A stretch of DNA of 64,000 nucleotides from Flavobacteriaceae bacterium (lineage in GTDB: Bacteria > Bacteroidota > Bacteroidia > Flavobacteriales > Flavobacteriaceae). The notes beneath the pieces were generated by a model. It was given only the letters and a program-made list of their open reading frames with translations, ran no database searches and was not told where the DNA came from. The stretch is from contig JAKITQ010000001.1 of the NCBI GenBank assembly GCA_021647985.1, positions 62,001-126,000 on the forward strand, in the 5' to 3' direction. Each line of letters opens with the position of its first letter. The stretch's first letter is position 1. The translations under genes and the position numbers were made by a program. Shown piece after piece: positions 50,279 to 63,832 of the stretch.

Positions 50279-50683
50279 TTACTCTACCAGAGTCCTCATA
50301 TAATTTACAACAAGCCACCTGTCTTCATCGTCAGGTAATTTTTTTGTATATTCTGGCATATCGTCTCTACCTTCCGTAGTTTTATAAAATAATGCGCCAT
50401 CACTTTGGGCTTGAAACTCTGCAGTAGAAAAATCTCCTAAATCACCTTCTACTTCATCTGCTTTTGTACCATCACCGTAGCCTTCTTTACCATGACAAGA
50501 CTTGCAATGTTTGTTGTACAAAGATTTACCTATGGCAATATTTTCTTTGTCTGCCTTATCTGTAGGGTTTTTCATGTTTTCATACTTTTCTGGAACTTTC
50601 CATTCATCTTGAACAATAAGTGAAAAAGAATAAAGAGCAAATGCTGCAATTGCGATCATTGATAATATTAAATTTTTTCTCAT
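50279..50683 (-). CDS. Monoheme c-type cytochrome
   Basis: Signal peptide MRKNLILSMIAIAAFALYSFS; one CKSCHG; MPEYTKKLPDDEDRWLVVNYMRTL cytochrome c class I C-terminus; start at internal ATG 50683. Confidence 0.9.
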   Translation of the reverse strand: MRKNLILSMIAIAAFALYSFSLIVQDEWKVPEKYENMKNPTDKADKENIAIGKSLYNKHCKSCHGKEGYGDGTKADEVEGDLGDFSTAEFQAQSDGALFYKTTEGRDDMPEYTKKLPDDEDRWLVVNYMRTLVE

Positions 50684-50734
50684 AATATGAAATTTAATTA
50701 AAGTTATTTTAATGCTTATTTTTTTATTGTTATA

Positions 50735-50777
50735 CAAATATCAGTAACATTGGTTATTTAAATTATGATTTAAATCA
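50735..50777 (-). promoter_or_regulatory. Putative FNR/CRP-type site and promoter of the monoheme cytochrome
   Basis: TGATTTAAATCA 50766-50777 (centre 50771.5); minus-strand GATATTTG 50735-50742, spacing 36.5. Confidence 0.55.
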
Positions 50778-50788
50778 GTTTCAAAAAA

Positions 50789-53700
50789 CTAATTTACTTT
50801 ATGATTTGTCTTCTTACTTTTAATGCCAGCAGCTATAATTAAAATTAATAATAATAGAATCGTAATCCAAGCCCATATTGGAAAAACGGGTGTTTCACCA
50901 CTTGCATAACTGTGTAATCCTTTAGATAAATAATAGTTTACACCAAAAAATGTCATAAGTACACTCGCAAAACTTATAATAGATCCTACATTAAAAATAT
51001 ATAAACTTTTCATTTTAGGTACCAATCTAAAGTGTAGTATAATGGTATAAGCCATTACAATAACCAATGCCCATGTTTCTTTGGCATCCCACCCCCAATA
51101 TCTACCCCAAGATTCATTAGCCCAAATACCTCCAAGAAATGTTCCAACTGTAGCTAAAAACAAACCAATTGTTATATTCATTTCATTGATTTGAGTAAGC
51201 TCTTTGATAATTAAATTAATTCTTTTACCATTTTTTTTATTTTTAATTAAATAGAGTGTCATATTCATCAATCCAAGTACAAATCCCAGACCTAAAAATC
51301 CATAACTAATGGTAAGGGTGGCAACATGAATAATTAACCAATACGATTTAAGTACTGGTTGTAGATTGGTTAATTGCGGGTCGTAACTACTATGACTAGC
51401 AGTCATTAGTGTAAAAAAGGCCAATAAAGCTGTCGCAGCTAAGGTTATTTTAGAATAGCGAATAAAACTAAACCCTGCTAGTAAACTACCCCACGACACC
51501 AATATTAGAGCCTCATATCCATTACTCCAAGGAGCATGACCTGATAGGTACCATCTTAAAGCCATACCATATGTATGATAAATAAATGCAATGCCTAATA
51601 ATAAAATGAAAAAATTCAGAGTATAGCTTAATATTTTACTTTTTTTATCTTTTAAATTATCAATAAAAGCAAGCACCAATAATATCACACTTAGCAGAGC
51701 ATAAATATTTTTTAAATTAATAAATATTTTTGCTTTGGTGTATTGTATTTCTTTATCAACTTTTGATTTAGAAGGTAATATAAGAGCAGAATCACTTTGT
51801 CTTTGAATATTATCTAAATATCCTAAGATCTTATTTGCTCTAGTATAATCACCTGACTTTGTTGCTTGAAATACTTCTGTTAAATATTTTTTAAACAGAT
51901 TGTTATAATTAAATTCTTTTAATTGTAAATCGTCATTTAATATTTTTATAGATCCTTTTAAAGGGTTTTTAGCAATTGGATCCATCCAATTGATCCATTT
52001 ATTATTTGAAGATTCTTGGTCTGGGAAAATATTGAGTAATTTACCTTGAAACCCTAGCATAAAAATTTCAACACGTTCATTTATTTTAATAATTTCTTTA
52101 TCAAAAACATTTTGTTCTGTAGGTTTTTTTCTAAACGCTGGTTCTGCAACAGACCTTAATTTATAATCGCCTTTTTCGTTAAAAAAGTCATTAAATGATG
52201 CGTATTTCCCTTCTGCGCCAATAATATTCATAACAGCTTGTTCACGTACATAAATAATTTTTTGTTGTTTCCAAAACTCTGCATTCAAGATTATATCCAT
52301 AAATACCTGCATAGCATCCATTTTTCCTTTTGTTGGAATATCAAAATTATCTTTTCTTGATATTTTATGCATTACGTCGTAAGCCAGTGTATTGATAGGT
52401 ACAAATCTTCCGCTGTAATTTTGAACAAGTAAATTTCCGAATTTTTTAGCATGAACAACACCAACAGAATTTTGATCTACATTATGGATGTGATTTGTAT
52501 TATTATCTTGAGAGTAGGTATTTCCAACAAAAATAATACCAAATATCATCGTAGCAATAAGTGATTTCCTTTTGGCTCGTGTATTCTTTATTTTATGAAT
52601 TAATTCATGATATCTAGAATTTTTATTGAATAATGTAGCAATAAAACCTAATCCCATAAGTAAGTATCCTATATAAGAGATCCAAGTGCCATAAAAATCA
52701 TGATTTACAGATAATACAGTTCCTTTTTCATCTTTGTCATAGGAAGATTGAAAAAAACGATAACCCTTATAATCTAATACATTATTCATATAAATTCTGT
52801 GATCTTCACTTAAGCCCTTATTCTTATCTATTAAGGTAACTTCACTAGCGTAAGATGATGGGCTATCAGAACCGGCGTATCTTTCTAATATAAATTTATT
52901 TAAATGAAGAGAAAATGGCAATTCTATTTGTTTCATACCATAAGACATTGCTATATCAATACCATCGATATTAACTTTTTGAAAATTGTTAACATAACCT
53001 CTACCTCCCAAGATAGCAACTTCTTTATCTTTTCCATTAACCGAAAGATTTACCAATAAAACATCAGGGCCTCTAGCTTCGTCATTTCCGGCAACATATT
53101 TTATTTTTGCGTTATTATACATCTTGGTTAATACAAATCCAATACCTGTTTCTAAAGGTTCATATAAATATTTTGGTTTCAATTCGCCTATAGAGTCTTT
53201 TGGTATTTCACCAATAGTTAATTCGGGCATTTTACTTGTTTTAATTGCACCAGGATAGCTAATTAGTGTTTTGCCATTATTGCTTATCAGTATAACTGCA
53301 TCTTCTCGATCATAATTATTATAGGCAAAAAAATGTCCATGAGTCTCTTTGATTTCGCCGTCCTTAATTAAAATAATGTCTTTATGACCGTCTACACTTA
53401 CCGTTAATTCTATTACTTTGATACCTTTTTGATCACTTTCTAGGTAGGTTTCTGTGGCATTCTTTAGGTAATCTTTATAACTTACCTCGATTTTAGATTT
53501 TTCATTAGTTTCTATTTCTACATTAAAATAATTATCTGTAATTGCACTAAAGTTTATCAATCGATCTACCTTGTAATTTAGTTTGTTTTCTACTGCATTT
53601 ACAATTAAATATGGATCGGAGCTTACCATAATATTTGATGATTCACCTTCACGTATATGCATACTTCCTTCAAACCCAATGTATCTTGTTACACCAGCAC

Positions 53701-53971
53701 CAATAATAACAACGATAAACGCTGAATGAAATAAAAGCCCAGTCCATCTACCTATGCGGTACAAGTGATACTTTTTAATACTTCCAATAAAGTTTACTGC
53801 CAATAAAAATAATAGAAACTCAAACCATTTAGCATTGTATATCAGTAATTTAGCTGTTATTGTGTCGTAGCTATCTTCAACAAAAGTAGCAGCGGCTATG
53901 GCAATTGTAAAAATTATGAGTAGAATTAAAGTGGCTTTTGACGAAATTATTAAATTGATAAGTTTTTTCAT
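50789..53971 (-). CDS. Fused ResB/CcsA (CcsBA) system II cytochrome c synthase
   Basis: ResB-like N-terminal half (LLFHSAFIVVIIGAGVTRYIGFEGSMHIREGES) and CcsA WWD-type motif GGIWANESWGRYWGWDAKETWALV. Confidence 0.93.
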   Translation of the reverse strand: MKKLINLIISSKATLILLIIFTIAIAAATFVEDSYDTITAKLLIYNAKWFEFLLFLLAVNFIGSIKKYHLYRIGRWTGLLFHSAFIVVIIGAGVTRYIGFEGSMHIREGESSNIMVSSDPYLIVNAVENKLNYKVDRLINFSAITDNYFNVEIETNEKSKIEVSYKDYLKNATETYLESDQKGIKVIELTVSVDGHKDIILIKDGEIKETHGHFFAYNNYDREDAVILISNNGKTLISYPGAIKTSKMPELTIGEIPKDSIGELKPKYLYEPLETGIGFVLTKMYNNAKIKYVAGNDEARGPDVLLVNLSVNGKDKEVAILGGRGYVNNFQKVNIDGIDIAMSYGMKQIELPFSLHLNKFILERYAGSDSPSSYASEVTLIDKNKGLSEDHRIYMNNVLDYKGYRFFQSSYDKDEKGTVLSVNHDFYGTWISYIGYLLMGLGFIATLFNKNSRYHELIHKIKNTRAKRKSLIATMIFGIIFVGNTYSQDNNTNHIHNVDQNSVGVVHAKKFGNLLVQNYSGRFVPINTLAYDVMHKISRKDNFDIPTKGKMDAMQVFMDIILNAEFWKQQKIIYVREQAVMNIIGAEGKYASFNDFFNEKGDYKLRSVAEPAFRKKPTEQNVFDKEIIKINERVEIFMLGFQGKLLNIFPDQESSNNKWINWMDPIAKNPLKGSIKILNDDLQLKEFNYNNLFKKYLTEVFQATKSGDYTRANKILGYLDNIQRQSDSALILPSKSKVDKEIQYTKAKIFINLKNIYALLSVILLVLAFIDNLKDKKSKILSYTLNFFILLLGIAFIYHTYGMALRWYLSGHAPWSNGYEALILVSWGSLLAGFSFIRYSKITLAATALLAFFTLMTASHSSYDPQLTNLQPVLKSYWLIIHVATLTISYGFLGLGFVLGLMNMTLYLIKNKKNGKRINLIIKELTQINEMNITIGLFLATVGTFLGGIWANESWGRYWGWDAKETWALVIVMAYTIILHFRLVPKMKSLYIFNVGSIISFASVLMTFFGVNYYLSKGLHSYASGETPVFPIWAWITILLLLILIIAAGIKSKKTNHKVN

Positions 53972-54118: not shown

Positions 54119-54835
54119 ATGAAAAAAATTATTATTTTTCTTGTAATGATTGGTTTCTTTTTGAGCTGTCAAAATAATAATAAATCACAAGGAGAGAACC
54201 AAACAGATGTTCACGGTGTTAAAGTTCAAGAAGTTTTGCAAGTTAGTGAATATACCTATTTACGAGTTTTAGAAGATGGAAAAGAGAAATGGCTGGCAGC
54301 GCCTTCGGTTCAGGTAGAGAAAGGAAAAACATACTATTTTAAAAATGGTATGGAAATGACGAATTTTGAAAGTAAAGAATTAAATAAAACTTTTGAAAAG
54401 ATTTATTTTATAGATAAGTTAAGCACAGATCCTAATATGAAAGTGGAAACGGCAAATTCGAGTATTCCAAAAAAGAATGACATGTCGCATCAGGCAACCA
54501 AACCAAAACTGGAAAAGGCAAAAGTTCAAATTCCACCAACAGAAGGTATTGTTACGATAGCAGAATTGTATGAAAATATTAAAAAATATGAAGGAAAACA
54601 AATTAAGATAAGAGGAAAAGTGACCAAATATAATCCTGCAATTTTGAAAAAAAATTGGATCCACCTTCAGGATGGCACGGCATTTAATGATAAATTTGAT
54701 TTTACAGCAACCATAAATAACGAAGTTAAAGTGGGCGATTTTGTTACCATAGAAGGTGTTATTGCCGTAAATAAAGATTTTGGCTATGGTTATGTTTATG
54801 AAGTGATTATGGAAAATGCCAGTTTGGTTAAATAA
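54119..54835 (+). CDS. NrfJ-like / OB-fold-containing lipoprotein
   Basis: Lipobox FFLSCQNN; VQEVLQVSEYTYLRVLEDGKEKWLAAPSVQVEKGKTYYFKNGMEMTNFESKELNKTFEKIYFI; C-terminal GKQIKIRGKVTKYNPAILKKNWIHLQDGT OB-like. Confidence 0.65.
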   Translation: MKKIIIFLVMIGFFLSCQNNNKSQGENQTDVHGVKVQEVLQVSEYTYLRVLEDGKEKWLAAPSVQVEKGKTYYFKNGMEMTNFESKELNKTFEKIYFIDKLSTDPNMKVETANSSIPKKNDMSHQATKPKLEKAKVQIPPTEGIVTIAELYENIKKYEGKQIKIRGKVTKYNPAILKKNWIHLQDGTAFNDKFDFTATINNEVKVGDFVTIEGVIAVNKDFGYGYVYEVIMENASLVK

Positions 54836-54857
54836 GAACCTTTTCAATTCAACAAGG

Positions 54858-55559
54858 ATGCATTATAAAAAGTTTTTAATATTGGTGTTGTTTATCGCTT
54901 TATACAATATCAGTTCAGCACAAGTTACAAGTTCAAAATTCAATAAAATTACAGTTAAAGAAATTCTACAAGTAAGTTCTTATACCTATTTATTTGTAGA
55001 TGAAGGTGCTGAAAATAAATGGTTGGCGGTTCCGTATTTTGATGCAAAAATAGGTGGCGTTTATTATTACAAAGGTGGTATGGAAATGGTTAATTTTGAA
55101 AGTAAGGAGTTAAATAAGACCTTTGAATCCGTTTATTTTATATCCGCAATTTATGATAACCCATTCGAAGAAAAAAAAACTACTTATAAACACGCAACAG
55201 ATGCTGATCTAAAAAATGACAGTCAGCAAAAAAACGAAAAATTAAATTTAAAGTTAAAACCATTAGAAGGAGGTGTTTCGATAGCTGAATTATTCAAAAA
55301 TAAAAATCAATATTCCGGTAAAAAAATTAAGATAAAAGGGCAGGTTACAAAGTTCAGTATGCAAGTAATGCGTAAAAACTGGATACATTTACAAGATGGA
55401 ACTGATTACAATAATAATTTTGATTTGACCTTAACATCAAATGCCGAAGTAAAAGTAGGAGATATTATTGTTTTAGAAGGAATTGTTTATTTAGATAAGG
55501 ATTTTGGCTATGGGTATTTTTATGAGCTAATCATTGAAAATGCCATTTTAATCAAATAG
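54858..55559 (+). CDS. NrfJ-like / OB-fold-containing exported protein, tandem paralogue
   Basis: VKEILQVSSYTYLFVDEGAENKWLAVPYFDAKIGGVYYYKGGMEMVNFESKELNKTFESVYFI and GKKIKIKGQVTKFSMQVMRKNWIHLQDGTDYNNNFDLTL; start at internal ATG 54858. Confidence 0.65.
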   Translation: MHYKKFLILVLFIALYNISSAQVTSSKFNKITVKEILQVSSYTYLFVDEGAENKWLAVPYFDAKIGGVYYYKGGMEMVNFESKELNKTFESVYFISAIYDNPFEEKKTTYKHATDADLKNDSQQKNEKLNLKLKPLEGGVSIAELFKNKNQYSGKKIKIKGQVTKFSMQVMRKNWIHLQDGTDYNNNFDLTLTSNAEVKVGDIIVLEGIVYLDKDFGYGYFYELIIENAILIK

Positions 55560-55707: not shown

Positions 55708-56517
55708 CTATTTTTTATGACATGTTAAACATAGGGCACTGCCGTCGTTAGATTTCCACAAAGATAAAGATTTAGTAACCATACCTCCACCTGCTTGAAT
55801 TTGATGGCAACCAACACAGCCTTGTGTATTTCTTGAAATATGTACATCATGACACGATGTACATTCCAATCTGTCATTTTCCAAAAGGTCTACTTCTATT
55901 GTATTTCCCAATCCTGAAGATGTAGAACTTGGATCGTGTAAATAACCATCAACATCTGCCAAAGCTGAATCATATATTACAGAAATTGGGTGATCATTTC
56001 GCAGATTTGTTGAAATATTTCCGAAACCCACAAATGCTGTTCCATTTGTAAAACCGCTATGATTGTCAACTGCTACAGTTCCATCATGACAAGAGAGGCA
56101 AAGCTTTGATTTTCCTAATGGTTGCCCCAATACCCCATCTAAAGTTGGGCTAGTATACATTTCGAACACGCTACTGGTTACCTGATGATTCCATAAAGGA
56201 GAGTCAGGCACTTCCAAATTAGCATTATGTGGGGTGTGACAGGGTTTGCAATATTCATTTCCACTCCATGATGCCCTACTAAAATCATGATGGCTCAACC
56301 TAAGCCCCTGACCAATTGTTATACTACAGAATAGTAATAATAAGACTGTAAAAATCGTGCTTTTTATTGATTTTTCTTTTTGAATGTTAGATTTTAATTC
56401 TAATAATTGATAAATAAAATTTAGAAATAGAGGCAATAAATATAGTGTGAATTTGAATTTTACACTTTTATAAAAAAGATTGTTTACTAATAATATTTTG
56501 AAAATTTGGGTTTTCAT
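55708..56517 (-). CDS. Pentaheme c-type cytochrome (cytochrome c3 / doubled-CXXCH family)
   Basis: Five CXXCH (CKPCH, CLSCH, CTSCH, CVGCH, CLTCH); paralogue of 62063..62686; start codon uncertain. Confidence 0.88.
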   Translation of the reverse strand: MKTQIFKILLVNNLFYKSVKFKFTLYLLPLFLNFIYQLLELKSNIQKEKSIKSTIFTVLLLLFCSITIGQGLRLSHHDFSRASWSGNEYCKPCHTPHNANLEVPDSPLWNHQVTSSVFEMYTSPTLDGVLGQPLGKSKLCLSCHDGTVAVDNHSGFTNGTAFVGFGNISTNLRNDHPISVIYDSALADVDGYLHDPSSTSSGLGNTIEVDLLENDRLECTSCHDVHISRNTQGCVGCHQIQAGGGMVTKSLSLWKSNDGSALCLTCHKK

Positions 56518-56582
56518 AACGGTTTGATATTTATTCGTATATATCTTGTAATATACATTAAAAATAATTCTTTACACTTAAT

Positions 56583-57644
56583 TCACCTTGTATATCTTTT
56601 TTCTTTATGACAACCTTTACAAGATCCACCATCTTCATAATTTTTAAAGACCAATGGCATATTCCATTTACCAAATTTCACCGTTTCCGGAATTAGATGT
56701 TCTCGAGATGAACCATGCAAACTATGGCAATTATTACATGTTCTACCTTTTTCTTTATTCACATGTAAAAAATGCAAATTTCTATCGCCATCTCTAAATT
56801 CTGTGGCATACTTGGTTCTTTCTTCTAAAAGCAAATCGGCATCATGACATTCAAAACACATTTCGTAATTTTCTTCGGTGCCTTTTGCATAGTTTCCTGT
56901 AGGGTAGGAGGTTGTCATCAAAAATTTGTTATTGGAAGCATGGGGATCATGGCAGGCGTTACAACTTTTTTCAAGCGCTTCATGAACAAATTTACTATCT
57001 TCTAGTAATTTGCCAATATTTGTTATTTTCCTATCATCTACAGTAATAGTTTTATCATGGCAGCTTAAACACAATTCTCTACCACCAGAAATAAGTAATT
57101 TTTTTCGTGAAGAAGAATGCGGTGAGTGACAGCCTATACATCCATCTTCGTCAGTAGCAGGTGAATGTACAAGGGTTGACTCTTCAATGATTTTTTCAAT
57201 TTCATCATGGCAAAAATAACACAAATCAGGTGCTTTTGCAAAAATGAATTTAGGGTCATTAGAACTGTGTATTTCATGGCATTCAGAACATTCACCTTTA
57301 GCAACAGGCTTGTGCACATATTTGTTTTTAATGATGGCATCTTTTTCTTCGTCATGGCAAGAAAAACAAAGGTCTGCACCTTCTTCTAAATAAGTAAAGC
57401 TTTCAATATCTTCTACTGGATGCTTTTTACCATTGGGCTTGTGACAACTAATACAATCGGACGCTGGGCCGTGAAGAATTTCCTTTTTAATAGTTCTCTT
57501 ATGACATTCTATACAAGTTTTTTCCTTTTTTTGTCCGTAAATATTTACCTGGAATAGTAATACGCAAATAAGTGTTAATCCTTGAAAATATTTGGCATTG
57601 GTTAACCAAAACATTGGGTTCGAAGTTTTTTTAAAGATTTTCAT
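56583..57644 (-). CDS. Undecaheme c-type cytochrome, doubled-CXXCH repeats, predicted periplasmic
   Basis: Eleven CXXCH motifs (CIECH, CISCH, CFSCH, CSECH, CYFCH, CIGCH, CLSCH, CNACH, CFECH, CNNCH, CKGCH). Confidence 0.93.
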   Translation of the reverse strand: MKIFKKTSNPMFWLTNAKYFQGLTLICVLLFQVNIYGQKKEKTCIECHKRTIKKEILHGPASDCISCHKPNGKKHPVEDIESFTYLEEGADLCFSCHDEEKDAIIKNKYVHKPVAKGECSECHEIHSSNDPKFIFAKAPDLCYFCHDEIEKIIEESTLVHSPATDEDGCIGCHSPHSSSRKKLLISGGRELCLSCHDKTITVDDRKITNIGKLLEDSKFVHEALEKSCNACHDPHASNNKFLMTTSYPTGNYAKGTEENYEMCFECHDADLLLEERTKYATEFRDGDRNLHFLHVNKEKGRTCNNCHSLHGSSREHLIPETVKFGKWNMPLVFKNYEDGGSCKGCHKEKRYTR

Positions 57645-57673
57645 TATTAGTTATTTTTATGTTTGTTAATATT

Positions 57674-59659
57674 TTAAAATCGCCTTGAAATTTTAAGTGA
57701 AACTTTGTTAAAATCTAATTGTTCATCTACCAATTCACGTCGATATATTTCTGCAGCTGCTGTAATAAATATTTGACGATATATGGTTGTAAACTCAAGC
57801 CTTGTGGTTAATAAATTTAAATATATTCCTTTTGCATCTCCATCTTGTTTTCGATAACCTCCTTCTAAATTTATTCTTGTTTTTGGCGTGAAATTATAGG
57901 TAATGTTTCCGGAAAGATTATAGTACACTTGTCTTTGCCCTTCAAATTCAATCATTAAATAATCTATAAATTCGCTATTTAAAGAATAATTCAATTTTTG
58001 ATTGATATTTCCTTGCAGTATTAAATAATAGCGCATCAATCGATAAGGTATTATCGTACTGTCGTAATTATCATATTCAATACCTCCACTTAAAAATTTA
58101 TAATTGAAACGAGTTCCGTAAAGGTTTTTATTAAAATAATTTAATGTTAGATTTTCTTGGTTTTCAATATCTATATAATCTTGTTTGGATCTATTTACAT
58201 AAAACTCTAATAGGTTTTTAAATAAGCTTACTCTTATGCCAAAAAAGTTGTTAATGGAATTAAATTTGTAAGAAAGTGGTTGATCGGCTTCATAATCTAT
58301 TAAAACTGTCGTGTTATTTGCAATGAGGCCACCTGGCACTCGTTGTATTTCAAGAAATTCATTTCTTTGAATTAAAATATAATCCAAATTTAATTGGTAT
58401 ATAATCGTGTTTGTAACATCCCTAACAATCACAGTTGGTAAAATTATGTCTTGATTTTTTAGCAGTACTATTTGACCATCAATCAATCTATGTGTTTCAT
58501 TTTGAACGACCAATGTTTCTGAATCTCCTTGCCTGTTTTGTTTGTTAGAGTTAATTCTATAAGTCATTGATAAATGCCCGTTTAACGGAATTTTTTTATC
58601 GTAAATAATATCGAACCCAGCTCTTCTAACGTTATCTTGAAATTGTGTATTGTTAATAATATTATATTCTAAAGAAGCTGTAGTTCTTAAACTTTTGTAC
58701 AACTGATGTGTTATTGAACTATTGATATTATGTTGTTTAGAAACTTGAGCATCAGACCTATAATCATTAAAATTATAACCGCTATACCATGTGAAGTTTT
58801 TTGGTAATTTAAAAGTTAAGTTTTCTAAAACCTGAAATCTTTTAAAATTTATATTACCATACTGGTTGTCATTTATAATTCTTGATCTTAGATTGTAATT
58901 TTTTTTAGAATCGAAATATATATTATTATTAAGATTCCATGTAGTAATATTGCTTTCTACAAGTTTACCATTGGGGTTGGTTGAAGCATTGATAAAACTA
59001 TCATCATAGGTGTATTCACTATGTGAAAATCTAAACTCATTTCTATCATACTGACCGAATGTTTTGGTCGCTCGGGCATCAATATTATTTCTTTCGGTTT
59101 TAAATATTCTTGTGGTTTGAATTTCTTCCTGTTCTCCTTTTCCTCTATCGTAGGAAATAAAAAGGGGTGCAATTTTATTAGAATAATTGAGCGATCCACC
59201 ATAGGTATAATTTTTTGTTTTGATATTTGTTAGGTTTTCTCTGTTACTGTAATTTTCATTGTAATTGATAAAAAAATTGAAATTAAAATCATTTCGTTGT
59301 AAAAAGGTCGTTTTGATATACAATTTTTTTAAACTATGTGTCTCATTTCTATCCGGTGTGACTAAAGAATATCTTTGTCCGGTATCGGGGCTATAACCTA
59401 TATTAAAATCTAAGGTTAAAAAATTAGGGTGGTAAAAATAACTGTTGGTATTCAATAATAATCCAGCAGAAAATAAGGAGCTTTGCTCATCAATTTTATT
59501 GTTGTTTCTAACAGTTACCTGATCCCAATAAGTTCCATACAAATTTACTTCACCACTATAGTAATTCAATTTCCAAAAAGAAGTCTTGGTAGTCGAATTT
59601 TGCGAATAACTATATAAAGTAATTAATAAAATGATATATGTAAATTTTATTCTATGCAT
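57674..59659 (-). CDS. Outer membrane beta-barrel protein (candidate porin of a porin-cytochrome complex)
   Basis: Signal peptide ...LYSYSQN; many alternating amphipathic strands throughout; C-terminal ...VSLKISRRF; embedded between two multiheme cytochrome genes (gaps 6 and 29 bp). Confidence 0.75.
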   Translation of the reverse strand: MHRIKFTYIILLITLYSYSQNSTTKTSFWKLNYYSGEVNLYGTYWDQVTVRNNNKIDEQSSLFSAGLLLNTNSYFYHPNFLTLDFNIGYSPDTGQRYSLVTPDRNETHSLKKLYIKTTFLQRNDFNFNFFINYNENYSNRENLTNIKTKNYTYGGSLNYSNKIAPLFISYDRGKGEQEEIQTTRIFKTERNNIDARATKTFGQYDRNEFRFSHSEYTYDDSFINASTNPNGKLVESNITTWNLNNNIYFDSKKNYNLRSRIINDNQYGNINFKRFQVLENLTFKLPKNFTWYSGYNFNDYRSDAQVSKQHNINSSITHQLYKSLRTTASLEYNIINNTQFQDNVRRAGFDIIYDKKIPLNGHLSMTYRINSNKQNRQGDSETLVVQNETHRLIDGQIVLLKNQDIILPTVIVRDVTNTIIYQLNLDYILIQRNEFLEIQRVPGGLIANNTTVLIDYEADQPLSYKFNSINNFFGIRVSLFKNLLEFYVNRSKQDYIDIENQENLTLNYFNKNLYGTRFNYKFLSGGIEYDNYDSTIIPYRLMRYYLILQGNINQKLNYSLNSEFIDYLMIEFEGQRQVYYNLSGNITYNFTPKTRINLEGGYRKQDGDAKGIYLNLLTTRLEFTTIYRQIFITAAAEIYRRELVDEQLDFNKVSLKISRRF

Positions 59660-59665
59660 CCCAGA

Positions 59666-60514
59666 TCAATTAAAAATAAAATTTTCATTACTTCCTCCGT
59701 GAGGATCATGACATTCCGCACAATTTTTATCTTCCGTTTTTTTATGTGCTTCACTTTTGTACAATTCTTTTGAATCATGACAGTTGGTACATAAGTTATC
59801 AATAGAAGCTATTAATAACTTGGGATTGTCTGTTTCATGTGATCCATGGCATTGCGAACAATTATCTGAAGCCACAGGAGCATGCAAAAATTTAAATTCT
59901 TTTTCATAATTATCATGACATTCATAACAACTCCCTGCCAACAAGCTATAATTATTGTTTCCACCATGAGCACTGTGGCATGTGGTACAACTTTCTTCTT
60001 CAATTTCTTTGTGAATTTTATCCGCAACAATTAAGGCTTCATCATGACAGCTTAAACAGAGATCCTGACCTTTTTGAATGAGTAATTTTTTGAATTTAGA
60101 TTGGTGGGGGTTATGACATTCTGAACAATTTCCAGCTGCTACAGGGCCATGTAATACGGCATACGTTTCGTTGAAATTATCATGACATTCATAGCATAAT
60201 TCGGGAGTGGGTGCCTTGGTTTTTCCCATGGCATTTCTATCATGGCAACTTGAACACTCTCTTTTTTGATAAGGTTCATGTAAGTTTAAATCATTTCTCG
60301 TATCATATGCTCTTCTGGTTATTAGCATTGAAGTGCTATCTGCTACCGACATAGAATCTTTTACAACACTAACTTCAACTTTATCGAGGACAGGAACCCC
60401 ATCAAACAAAAATGATTGTACATCATGACTAAACTTAGGAGAACAATTCCAAAACAATAAAGATATTATAACAATGCCTAATGAACGTATATTTTTAATT
60501 TTATCAAAAAACAT
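59666..60514 (-). CDS. Nonaheme c-type cytochrome lipoprotein
   Basis: Lipobox SLLFWNCSPKF; nine CXXCH (CSSCH, CYECH, CSECH, CLSCH, CTTCH, CYECH, CSQCH, CTNCH, CAECH). Confidence 0.93.
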   Translation of the reverse strand: MFFDKIKNIRSLGIVIISLLFWNCSPKFSHDVQSFLFDGVPVLDKVEVSVVKDSMSVADSTSMLITRRAYDTRNDLNLHEPYQKRECSSCHDRNAMGKTKAPTPELCYECHDNFNETYAVLHGPVAAGNCSECHNPHQSKFKKLLIQKGQDLCLSCHDEALIVADKIHKEIEEESCTTCHSAHGGNNNYSLLAGSCYECHDNYEKEFKFLHAPVASDNCSQCHGSHETDNPKLLIASIDNLCTNCHDSKELYKSEAHKKTEDKNCAECHDPHGGSNENFIFN

Positions 60515-60592
60515 GTATTGTTAGTTTAACATGGTTTGAAATTTTATTTCATTCAATCATATAAAATTTAAATGAATAGCAATTAAGCTCAA

Positions 60593-61663
60593 TTATTTTT
60601 TTATTTCCTTTCTGTATTTATCTCTAATTCTTCCGTATACACTAACCTTGTCAGGTCCAAATTGATTGGTAACATAGATCAAGTATTCTAAATCGTATTT
60701 AGGATCTACATACTCTTGAAAATATTGTAAATTATCATAATCAATTCTAACTTTTACAGGAAGCCACATCCCTCCAGGTCCTTTATAAGCGCCACCGAAA
60801 TACAGTAATAATTTGCCATCTTTATCAAAAATTTGTACATTTTCAAAGCTTGCATCCACCACGTATAAATTTTCTTCTTTGTCAACTGCTACGCCCTTTG
60901 GGCGAACAAAATCACCTATTCTATCACCATATTTACCTACGGAGCTTAAATATTCTCCTTTATGAGTATAAATTTTCACATTACTACCAGCCATATCCGT
61001 GACATAAACTTTATTTTCAGAAACAAATATATTTGTAGGTTTAAACAAATAGCTTTCGTCATCTTGTTCTGATTTTGGGAAATAAAAATCAAATGCGTAG
61101 GTCTTTCTATTGTAAACATTAACTCTGTGATTGCCAGAATCAACCACCCATATTTTATCTCCTTTCACAAAAACATCTGTAGGTTTTAGATTTTCTTTTT
61201 TACCAAATGAAGTAACATATTCTTTATTTTTATCAAATACCATTATTTTTTGAAGCGTTATATCAGCGATATAGAGTTGATCATTTTTATCTACATAAAT
61301 ATTAAGAGGTAATTTTAATTGGTATTGATCTTTCGGAATAAAGTAATTAAATTCTTTATTTTCTAAATCAATTATTTCTAATCCGGCAATATTAACATCA
61401 CAAACATACATTTTACCGTTACGAACAAATACCCCGTAAGGTTTTAAAATGGATTGCACTTTGTCTTCACCAACAATAGATTTAGAAAATGCAGATTGTT
61501 TTACGACATCTTTGGAGGTACTTATACTGGTTAAATATTGTATTCGGCCTGCATCTGGTGGCGGTGGATAAATAATAGATTTACTTGTACTTTGATTTAA
61601 TTTTGGAGAGCATGCACTAAGAAACGAAAATATCGCAAATATTAGATAGATTATAGACCTCAT
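60593..61663 (-). CDS. NHL-repeat / six-bladed beta-propeller lipoprotein
   Basis: Lipobox SFLSACSPKL; repeats LKPYGVFVRNGKMYVCDVN, LPLNIYVDKNDQLYIADI, KPTDVFVKGDKIWVVDSGNHRVNVYN, RPKGVAVDKEENLYVVDASFENVQIFDKDG. Confidence 0.88.
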   Translation of the reverse strand: MRSIIYLIFAIFSFLSACSPKLNQSTSKSIIYPPPPDAGRIQYLTSISTSKDVVKQSAFSKSIVGEDKVQSILKPYGVFVRNGKMYVCDVNIAGLEIIDLENKEFNYFIPKDQYQLKLPLNIYVDKNDQLYIADITLQKIMVFDKNKEYVTSFGKKENLKPTDVFVKGDKIWVVDSGNHRVNVYNRKTYAFDFYFPKSEQDDESYLFKPTNIFVSENKVYVTDMAGSNVKIYTHKGEYLSSVGKYGDRIGDFVRPKGVAVDKEENLYVVDASFENVQIFDKDGKLLLYFGGAYKGPGGMWLPVKVRIDYDNLQYFQEYVDPKYDLEYLIYVTNQFGPDKVSVYGRIRDKYRKEIKK

Positions 61664-61716
61664 AATGTGAATTTTTATTACTTGATTAGTAGAGTTATTT
61701 GTTTTTAAGTATTGGT

Positions 61717-61759
61717 TAAAAGTATTAATAAAGTTAGCTACAGCCTATGATTAATATCA
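61717..61759 (-). promoter_or_regulatory. Putative FNR/CRP-type site and promoter of the NHL-cytochrome-barrel operon
   Basis: TGATTAATATCA 61748-61759 (centre 61753.5); minus-strand TACTTTTA 61717-61724, spacing 36.5. Confidence 0.5.
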
Positions 61760-61954
61760 GTTTTGGGCTAATAATCAGTTAAATAAGGCCAATAATTACA
61801 AGTTTTTATGAACAATATTTTTTGGAGTGCTATATAACTGTTTTGATTCTTTTAATATAATGTGGACTAGGGTGCTTTATTTTAATAAAAGATATTGTAT
61901 TTGATTCCGTAATAAAAAGCGAGATTAGCCTGCCTATAGTAGGTTTTGCTAATA

Positions 61955-61990
61955 TTGATATATTTTCATCAAAAGATGAAAATATATCAA
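61955..61990. repeat. Perfect 16-bp inverted repeat with AAAA loop
   Basis: TTGATATATTTTCATC-AAAA-GATGAAAATATATCAA. Confidence 0.9.
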
Positions 61991-62017
61991 TAAGTTTCAC
62001 TAATAAAATATTTACAT

Positions 62018-62046
62018 AAAAAAAGGGCAATCATTGCCCTTTTTTT
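62018..62046 (-). terminator. Rho-independent terminator of tetraheme cytochrome gene
   Basis: AGGGCAAT-c-ATTGCCCT flanked by A/T runs. Confidence 0.8.
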
Positions 62047-62062
62047 ATTGCGTCAAACTATT

Positions 62063-62686
62063 TTATTTATCATGACAAGTTAAACAAAGTGCACTTCCTG
62101 CGTTAGTTACTCTTAATAGGTTGGGTAATCCAGCTCCATTATGAACATCATGACAAGACGAGCATTGTAATTGACCTGCTAGTAAAAAATCTGCGTCAAT
62201 TGTACCTCCAACACCAGAATTTGTTGTTGTAGGGTCGTACAAGCCACCATCACTAGTTGCTAAAGCAGCATCATAAGTAAACGAAATTGGGTGGTCATTA
62301 GATAGGTCTGTACCAATAAGGTCACCACCAGTCATAAAGTCACCACCATTGGTTCTACCACCAAAATTGTCCATTGCTACAGTACCATCATGACAACTTA
62401 AGCATAATTTAGATGCACCAGAGGGTTGCCCTATAGTTGCAGAACCTTCAAAAGAAGGTGAATCATAAAGTGTAAAATTAGCTTGGGTTACTTCGTGATT
62501 CCATAAAGGAGCATCAGGTACAGTAATGTCCGCATTGTGAGGCGTATGACATACAATACAAATCTCTCCAGTATTGTTCCAGTTTTCAGTAGAAAAATCA
62601 TGATCCGATCCTGTTATTTGGCTAAAACCAAATGATGACATCAACATGACTAAACTTAGTGTTAAAAATAATTTTGTTTTTTTCAT
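62063..62686 (-). CDS. Tetraheme c-type cytochrome (cytochrome c3 / doubled-CXXCH family), secreted
   Basis: Signal peptide MKKTKLFLTLSLVMLMSSFGFSQ; four CXXCH (CIVCH, CLSCH, CSSCH, CLTCH). Confidence 0.92.
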   Translation of the reverse strand: MKKTKLFLTLSLVMLMSSFGFSQITGSDHDFSTENWNNTGEICIVCHTPHNADITVPDAPLWNHEVTQANFTLYDSPSFEGSATIGQPSGASKLCLSCHDGTVAMDNFGGRTNGGDFMTGGDLIGTDLSNDHPISFTYDAALATSDGGLYDPTTTNSGVGGTIDADFLLAGQLQCSSCHDVHNGAGLPNLLRVTNAGSALCLTCHDK

Positions 62687-63004: not shown

Positions 63005-63832
63005 TTATTGAAGTTTAGCAATAGTTTCTATAATAAATACCCCCGGTACAACCTCGGCCAAATCGAGCTGCTGTGCTTCTACTGAAGTTTTATATGCTGA
63101 TTTAATCTGGGTAATTTTTACTCTTTCTTTACTAATTAAACCGGCAATAAATTGCGTTGTTTCAATATGCATTTCACCGCGGTAAGTTCTTCCGGATTGC
63201 ACAAAATATACTGGGCCACCACTGTTGCCTTTAAATATTTTAATGTCCAGCAAATAATTTCCAACTTGTTTTCCTGGTGTTATTGGGTAAGAAGAGAGGA
63301 TGCCTCTTCTCACAATTGGAAAACCATATTTATTAGATTCTTGGCCTAAGGGAAATCCTAAACATAAAAACTGATCTCCAGGGTGAATATTAATTTTTTC
63401 ATATAACTTGTCCGTTCCAATCATTCCAATGTTTAAAAATTTAAAATGTATATTTTTAGGTAAAGTAACATAGAGGGCAGCAACATCTGCAGAATCATGA
63501 TTTACCCAACTTTGTTCACCATTGTCTCTTATTTTAATTTTATAGTTAAGCTTTTTATATTCTGTATTATTAATTTTCCACCTTAAAAATAAAATTGCCG
63601 AGTCGCCTTTCATTTCTCTTAACACATGATCGGCAGTAATTAGAACAAATTGTTTTTTTTTCGTTTCACTATTTACAGGTTTTTCCAAAATAAATGCTGT
63701 ACCGTATGAGCCGTTCAAACCTTTGATTTTAAAAGTTGAATTCATTAAGGCTGTATTCAATTCAATCCTTTTTTGAGCCTCCAACAAATGGATATTAAAA
63801 AATAAAATAATTATTAAAAATATTTGTTTCAT
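63005..63832 (-). CDS. Secreted trypsin-like (S1) serine protease
   Basis: Signal peptide; catalytic contexts LITADHVL, HDSADVAALYV, FKGNSGGPVYF. Confidence 0.88.
   Translation of the reverse strand: MKQIFLIIILFFNIHLLEAQKRIELNTALMNSTFKIKGLNGSYGTAFILEKPVNSETKKKQFVLITADHVLREMKGDSAILFLRWKINNTEYKKLNYKIKIRDNGEQSWVNHDSADVAALYVTLPKNIHFKFLNIGMIGTDKLYEKINIHPGDQFLCLGFPLGQESNKYGFPIVRRGILSSYPITPGKQVGNYLLDIKIFKGNSGGPVYFVQSGRTYRGEMHIETTQFIAGLISKERVKITQIKSAYKTSVEAQQLDLAEVVPGVFIIETIAKLQ

Follow-up and report, generated by a model that had tools for sequence, protein, structure and literature searches.

A Flavobacteriaceae gene cluster encoding OmcE-type cytochromes and an outer-membrane barrel: a putative extracellular filament with its own conduit

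A cluster of multiheme cytochrome genes

The window, a stretch of 64,000 nucleotides from a Flavobacteriaceae genome, contains six successive genes on its minus strand (55708-62686) whose products have 5, 11, 0, 9, 0, and 4 CXXCH motifs respectively, 29 in all (Table 1); our recount of the open reading frames and motifs bears out an earlier note on this DNA in both coordinates and numbers. The gaps between the genes are 65, 29, 6, 78, and 399 bp, with the first five tightly packed and the 4-heme gene set apart by the last of these. The four cytochromes are the only products of window ORFs of at least 60 aa to have more than one CXXCH motif, and each of them matches Paired_CXXCH_1 in Pfam. In the genome as a whole (G000; a 3.0 Mb assembly of 80 contigs, 87% complete), 13 of the 14 Paired_CXXCH stretches are on the cluster contig, inside the cluster and its continuation, and the sole match elsewhere is in a lipoprotein that has eight CXXCH motifs and a C-terminal half of repeat-like character (G000:C43, L021:6556-8742).

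The cluster extends beyond 62686. Outside the window lie a gene for an 11-heme protein of 558 aa and another NHL gene, followed by hemA and then a UPF0093 gene that we take to be of the HemJ family (all on G000:C52). A trypsin-like secreted protein is encoded between the 4-heme gene and the gene for the 558-aa protein, at 63005-63832 of the window, in this genome alone; we do not regard it as part of the cluster because it is absent from the other loci compared.

Table 1. Genes of the cluster, its neighbors, and associated loci. Coordinates are those of the window unless a contig or locus is named.
Feature	Location	Strand	Evidence or remarks
5-heme OmcE paralog, 269 aa as listed (OmcE core plus one added CXXCH)	55708..56517	-	Alignment with OmcE-like proteins
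11-heme soluble cytochrome, 353 aa, Sec signal, probably periplasmic	56583..57644	-	Paired_CXXCH_1 2.1e-46
Outer-membrane beta-barrel, 661 aa, no Cys; candidate sheath of cytochrome wire	57674..59659	-	AF2 model; no Pfam or NCBIfam match
9-heme outer-membrane lipoprotein cytochrome, 282 aa; candidate wire in or below barrel	59666..60514	-	Paired_CXXCH_1 1.9e-47; lipobox Cys24
NHL1 beta-propeller lipoprotein, 356 aa, 0 CXXCH; candidate assembly or morphology factor	60593..61663	-	Pfam NHL 1.6e-12; DUF5128 6-bladed propeller; lipobox
4-heme OmcE homolog, 207 aa, Sec signal peptide; candidate filament subunit	62063..62686	-	phmmer; 4 CXXCH and H29/H50/H132/H182
558-aa 11-heme protein, OmcE domain N-terminal	G000:C52:126224-127900, past window		OmcE domain 5.6e-29
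NHL2, second NHL protein	G000:C52:127902-128885, past window		
Second hemA and UPF0093 gene	L018:12173-14211 (G000:C52:129173-131211)		
Aestuariivivens extra hemA	L024:292-1509		
CcsBA-type cytochrome c maturation protein (System II)	50789..53971	-	Pfam ResB and Cytochrom_C_asm; adjoins cluster in eight related loci too
Two paralogous secreted proteins, possible OB-fold domain	54119..55559	+	Weak sub-cut-off DUF1980_C match; beside cluster in eight related loci
Monoheme c-type cytochrome, possible periplasmic carrier	50279..50737	-	Cytochrome_CBB3 4.7e-11; homologs beside cluster or NrfCD module
NrfD module loci	L076 (G000:C80:1-9998); L077:10417-16309; L078:6436-15928; L025:112-5367		
Second cluster type, other Bacteroidota families	L080-L083		OmcE-like 4-heme, OmcE-fused 10-heme, NHL proteins, 8-heme protein, 558-567 aa barrel

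Three proteins related to the OmcE filament cytochrome

When the 4-heme protein is compared with the PDB using phmmer, its best match is 7tfs_A, the OmcE filament of Geobacter (1.1e-27, over residues 6-207 of 207), and the second is 9yuq_N, a chain of a 16-chain entry named 'putative multiheme cytochrome c' (1.1e-25, over nearly the full length); no other PDB sequences match at E-values up to 0.1. In the OmcE wire, whose published helical rise is 34 A, an interfacial heme is coordinated by histidines of two neighboring subunits (PMC12954529). Alignment with 7TFS places all four CXXCH motifs in register together with H29, H50, H132, and H182, which are candidate bis-His ligands, and these eight ligand positions are invariant among 20 relatives, with the exception of H50 in three divergent extra paralogs. 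The paralogs lacking H50 (the His of a CHTPH motif) are encoded at the cluster end (L036:14241-14834, L039:13345-14013, and L040:13501-14124), and they are possible caps or terminators.

The 5-heme protein is 53% identical to the 4-heme protein and consists of the OmcE core with one CXXCH added ahead of the last heme. Its homologs are confined to loci from MAGs that are unclassified or labelled as Calditrichota or Bacteroidetes, and because they begin about 45 codons downstream of the listed start, the true start of this ORF is probably at that point. In the 558-aa protein, residues 15-199 form an OmcE domain with the same eight histidines, and this is followed by seven further CXXCH motifs. 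No OmcS chain is found among the PDB matches of the 4-heme and 558-aa proteins at E-values up to 0.1.

Distribution and conservation of the cluster

A scan of a genome contig collection with a single barrel sequence gave no match; a profile of five barrels identified 17 loci in the same collection, and with genome searches included we compared 19 distinct loci besides the window. A recurring order is seen (NHL2, OmcE-fusion, OmcE, NHL1 lipoprotein, 5/9-heme lipoprotein, barrel, multiheme) in Flavobacteriaceae, one of them the isolate Aestuariivivens sediminicola, in other Bacteroidota, and in MAGs labelled Calditrichota; a Lutibacter MAG is also represented. The genes for NHL1, the lipoprotein cytochrome, and the barrel are adjacent in 19/19 loci, NHL1 is immediately preceded by an OmcE gene in 16 (at the remaining three that position falls on a contig end or in a stretch of N), and the OmcE-fusion gene is present in 15. 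Porin-cytochrome systems are recognized by a barrel gene with at least two multiheme genes, and here the lipoprotein cytochrome is upstream of the barrel at every one of the 19 loci, while a multiheme family of 8-18 hemes, represented in the window by the 11-heme protein, is encoded directly downstream in 16. Conserved synteny across Bacteroidota, which the earlier note had proposed to survey, is thus borne out, and since the gene order is kept across 19 loci a chance assembly of the cluster can be excluded. In the more distant loci (L034:3845-6774, L036:3728-6608, and L039:4460-7310) the OmcE-fusion gene is separated from the OmcE gene by those for a histidine kinase and for a response regulator of the sigma-54 type, a placement that suggests dedicated regulation.

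The cluster is patchily distributed, being present in five of 400 genomes of the family, with full-length barrel matches in two of 398 genomes of the phylum, the window's own included; neither the barrel nor OmcE has a match in a plasmid collection. In G011, which belongs to the same genus as the window, the cluster is in the same neighborhood (PPDK, an efflux operon, MarR, and cytochrome c), and the PPDK and efflux flanks are 67-82% identical to those of the window, whereas the cluster genes are 40-57% identical. The cluster genes of G278, a different genus, are 57-73% identical to those of the window. Because cluster identity in G011 is thus below both that of its flanks and that of the other-genus genome, transfer or replacement of the cluster block would be the simplest reading. 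The G278 cluster (L026/L025, on G278:C276) is the closest relative found, with 60% barrel identity; its GenBank label is Chlorobiota, the genome collection places it in the window's family, and the label is probably wrong. We know of no metal respiration in the Flavobacteriaceae, and a search of the open-access literature found no paper on OmcE or porin-cytochrome systems in this family.

In comparison with MAGs whose label is Calditrichota or unclassified Bacteroidetes, OmcE proteins are mostly 63-68% identical, the fusion proteins 55-57%, the lipoproteins 37-43%, and the barrels 30-36%. The high OmcE identity would fit a subunit that contacts itself on both of its faces, and it has a bearing on an alternative in which the locus encodes a conduit and no filament, the 4- and 5-heme OmcE-like proteins being monomeric carriers at the surface or in the periplasm. 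That alternative accounts for the conserved barrel and multiheme genes, and filaments are known for only some homologs of filament cytochromes (PMC12977616). We give it real weight but think it unlikely, as conservation of the OmcE protein far exceeds that of the rest of the cluster, the eight candidate ligands are kept, including the one expected to act between subunits, and the 16 chains of the 9yuq match are consistent with an assembly.

The outer-membrane barrel

An AF2 model of the barrel (18 sequences) has a mean pLDDT of 85.3 and a pTM of 0.69, with about 28-30 strands of at least 10 residues and no plug. Among the 50 Foldseek matches listed, the highest TM-score is to MtrB (6r2q_B), at 0.43 on both lengths and so below 0.5, and the others are at 0.40 or less; the best E-values are those of TonB receptors (Cir, FecA) and SusC. 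None of the 18 family members matches an MtrB/PioB model of Pfam or NCBIfam at E-values up to 0.1, none has a TonB plug or receptor match in Pfam, and a barrel profile finds only chance-level matches among PDB sequences. The earlier note had raised the prospects of a pore too narrow for a cytochrome and of a TonB-type barrel; the predicted pore is instead a wide one, and neither the model nor Pfam shows a TonB plug. Its further suggestion of a distinct Bacteroidota family stands as regards distinctness, in that the barrel is set apart from MtrB/PioB by the Pfam and NCBIfam models, and fails as regards the restriction to Bacteroidota, the family being found also in MAGs labelled Calditrichota.

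In four other genomes of Bacteroidota, OmcE-like genes and NHL genes are accompanied by one for a second barrel type, of 558-567 aa. Comparison of the two barrel profiles with hhalign gives a weak alignment (E 6.5e-6, probability 85%), which may reflect mere common barrel character.

It could also be that the barrel serves to secrete the OmcE-type protein and that electrons reach the wire by another route, such a secretion role having been proposed for OscE/F/G with OmcS (PMC13194489), and the OmcE gene does accompany the barrel wherever the upstream side of a locus is complete. We attach little credence to this, because the closest partners of the barrel are the lipoprotein cytochrome, whose gene is 6 bp away in the window and overlaps the barrel gene in other loci, and the downstream multiheme, and export would need neither of them. 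A TonB-type barrel, or some other nutrient transporter that lies beside cytochrome genes by chance, is very improbable in spite of the Foldseek E-values that put Cir, FecA, and SusC first, given TM-scores below that of MtrB and linkage to multihemes in all 19 loci, and a TonB receptor in particular is rejected by the lack of a plug in both Pfam and the AF2 model.

The lipoprotein and the 11-heme cytochrome

Whichever cytochrome such a barrel would sheathe, the lipoprotein and the 11-heme protein are the candidates. All homologs of the lipoprotein contain a core of five hemes in which ten histidines are invariant, five of them in CXXCH motifs and five possible second ligands, and the lipobox Cys24 and an FDGVP motif are likewise invariant. 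The 9-heme form is this core plus a 4-heme extension that is present in some Flavobacteriaceae-type loci only. An acidic run following the lipobox Cys is the surface-export signal of Bacteroidota lipoproteins, and no such run is seen in the aligned residues of the lipoprotein homologs; because this signal is missing, we favor the periplasmic face of the outer membrane as the more likely location of the 9-heme lipoprotein, which would therefore be no less plausible an occupant of the barrel lumen than the 11-heme protein. The earlier note had the 11-heme protein in the periplasm, which is probably correct, and the lipoprotein at the outer membrane, a placement that we would narrow to the periplasmic face. 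In one Lake Pavin MAG (L035:9423-14314), the gene after the barrel is the OmcE-fusion, behind which comes a second copy of the 5-heme lipoprotein. The AF2 model of the 11-heme cytochrome, with a pLDDT of 44.6, is not usable. Against the NCBIfam models for MtrA/DmsE (TIGR03508) the window cytochromes reach 97 and 89 bits vs a cut-off of 192, and against that for OmcA/MtrC (TIGR03507) 29 vs 209.

Electron source and heme supply

NrfD is found in all five cluster genomes, and a module of NrfD with a 4Fe-4S protein, which adjoins the cluster in G278 and G011 and lies elsewhere in G000 and G265, is a possible quinone link. Also encoded in the module are a DUF5777 barrel, a small c-type cytochrome, and an EB_dh or 6-heme lipoprotein. 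We reject an NrfH/CymA-type quinol dehydrogenase as a general partner, there being no match to PF03264 (NrfH-type) in G000, G265, and G278. All five cluster genomes encode COX1-family oxidases, and the cells are probably able to use oxygen; the gene content is compatible with a conduit for either export or import of electrons.

There are two hemA genes in the window's genome, one beside hemC- and hemH-like genes on contig C77 and the second beside the cluster. In Aestuariivivens, too, a second hemA adjoins the cluster; this copy is divergent, with 28% identity to the one beside the window's cluster. G011, G278, and G024 have one copy each. The placement of an extra hemA beside the cluster twice, apparently independently, fits a heme-hungry system.

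Comparison with known systems

The 4-heme protein resembles OmcE of Geobacter sulfurreducens (7TFS) in its full-length homology, its aligned four CXXCH motifs and four histidines, and its Sec export. As a candidate filament subunit it differs in that its gene is clustered with those for a barrel, a lipoprotein cytochrome, two propellers, and an OmcE-fused 11-heme protein. With the porin-cytochrome conduits (MtrCAB, OmbB-OmaB-OmcB, and ExtABCD) the locus shares a wide outer-membrane barrel encoded beside multihemes, although it has no match to the MtrB/PioB models, the barrel is predicted to have about 28-30 strands as compared with 26 in MtrB (PMC12133095), and the cytochromes fall under the NCBIfam cut-offs for MtrA/DmsE and OmcA/MtrC. 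In the Ignavibacteria (Melioribacter and Ignavibacterium), of a phylum near Bacteroidota, there are also clusters of barrel and multiheme genes, but these were detected by MtrB, OmbB, ExtB/E, and ExtI models, and OmcE and NHL genes are not mentioned in that paper (PMC7399161).

The nearest system in its logic is the osc operon of Geobacter, where OscD is presumably a beta-propeller. As described in a paper that cites Shen 2025, OscE/F/G are proposed to act in secretion and OscD in morphology of the OmcS wire, and a nanowire cytochrome is encoded with channel-type proteins, large multihemes, and accessory factors, as appears to be the case here (PMC13194489). The wire of the present locus would be OmcE-type rather than OmcS-type, however, and its cluster includes no OscH-like folding factor.

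A model for the locus

We consider it somewhat probable that the product of the locus is an extracellular cytochrome filament of the OmcE type, encoded with a conduit of its own across the outer membrane and with propeller accessory proteins. Electrons would be exchanged with the menaquinol pool via the NrfCD-type module, and their route would lead through the periplasmic 11-heme cytochrome and the 9-heme lipoprotein of the outer membrane, one or both of which the 661-aa barrel would sheathe. Outside the cell, the OmcE-fused 11-heme protein would be a base or adaptor and the 4-heme OmcE protein would polymerize by means of an inter-subunit heme ligand, and the NHL propellers would likely be assembly or morphology factors. 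The earlier note had read the locus as a candidate porin-cytochrome conduit, which is probably correct; that reading was incomplete in missing the OmcE-family nature of the 4- and 5-heme proteins and the two cluster genes beyond the window.

We favor a filament with a conduit because of the OmcE homology in three proteins, the eight ligands, and the synteny of 19 loci; because the barrel is wide and plug-less, with MtrB as its top TM-score, and has CcsBA, NrfCD, and hemA genes as neighbors of its cluster; and because OmcE and NHL genes are paired with a second barrel type in other Bacteroidota. To be weighed against it are the rarity of the cluster, the lack of known metal respiration in the family, the TM-score to MtrB of less than 0.5, and the poor prediction of filament formation by homology, even inside Geobacter (PMC12977616); the respiratory or physiological role of the OmcS and OmcE filaments is itself disputed (PMC11077965, PMC13194489). 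A bolder version, which we put forward tentatively, is that this is a self-contained nanowire machine outside Geobacter, with an OmcE subunit, a docking fusion, a new-family barrel with a lipoprotein wire, and propeller factors, which has spread by descent and transfer across the Flavobacteriaceae and related phyla, among bacteria that are not known to respire extracellularly.

Implications

The electrical connection between a cytochrome nanowire and its cell is, to our knowledge, an open question, and the occurrence in a fixed order of a filament-type subunit, an OmcE-fused multiheme, and a conduit provides concrete candidates for the base of the wire. An isolate, Aestuariivivens sediminicola MTV5-3, has the whole cluster set as well as COX1-family oxidases and makes the nanowire question testable outside Geobacter. 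That some Flavobacteriaceae make OmcE-type cytochrome nanowires is thus put forward as a testable claim. Members of this family are usually studied as polymer-degrading heterotrophs, and if the claim is true it would extend likely extracellular electron exchange to the Flavobacteriaceae.
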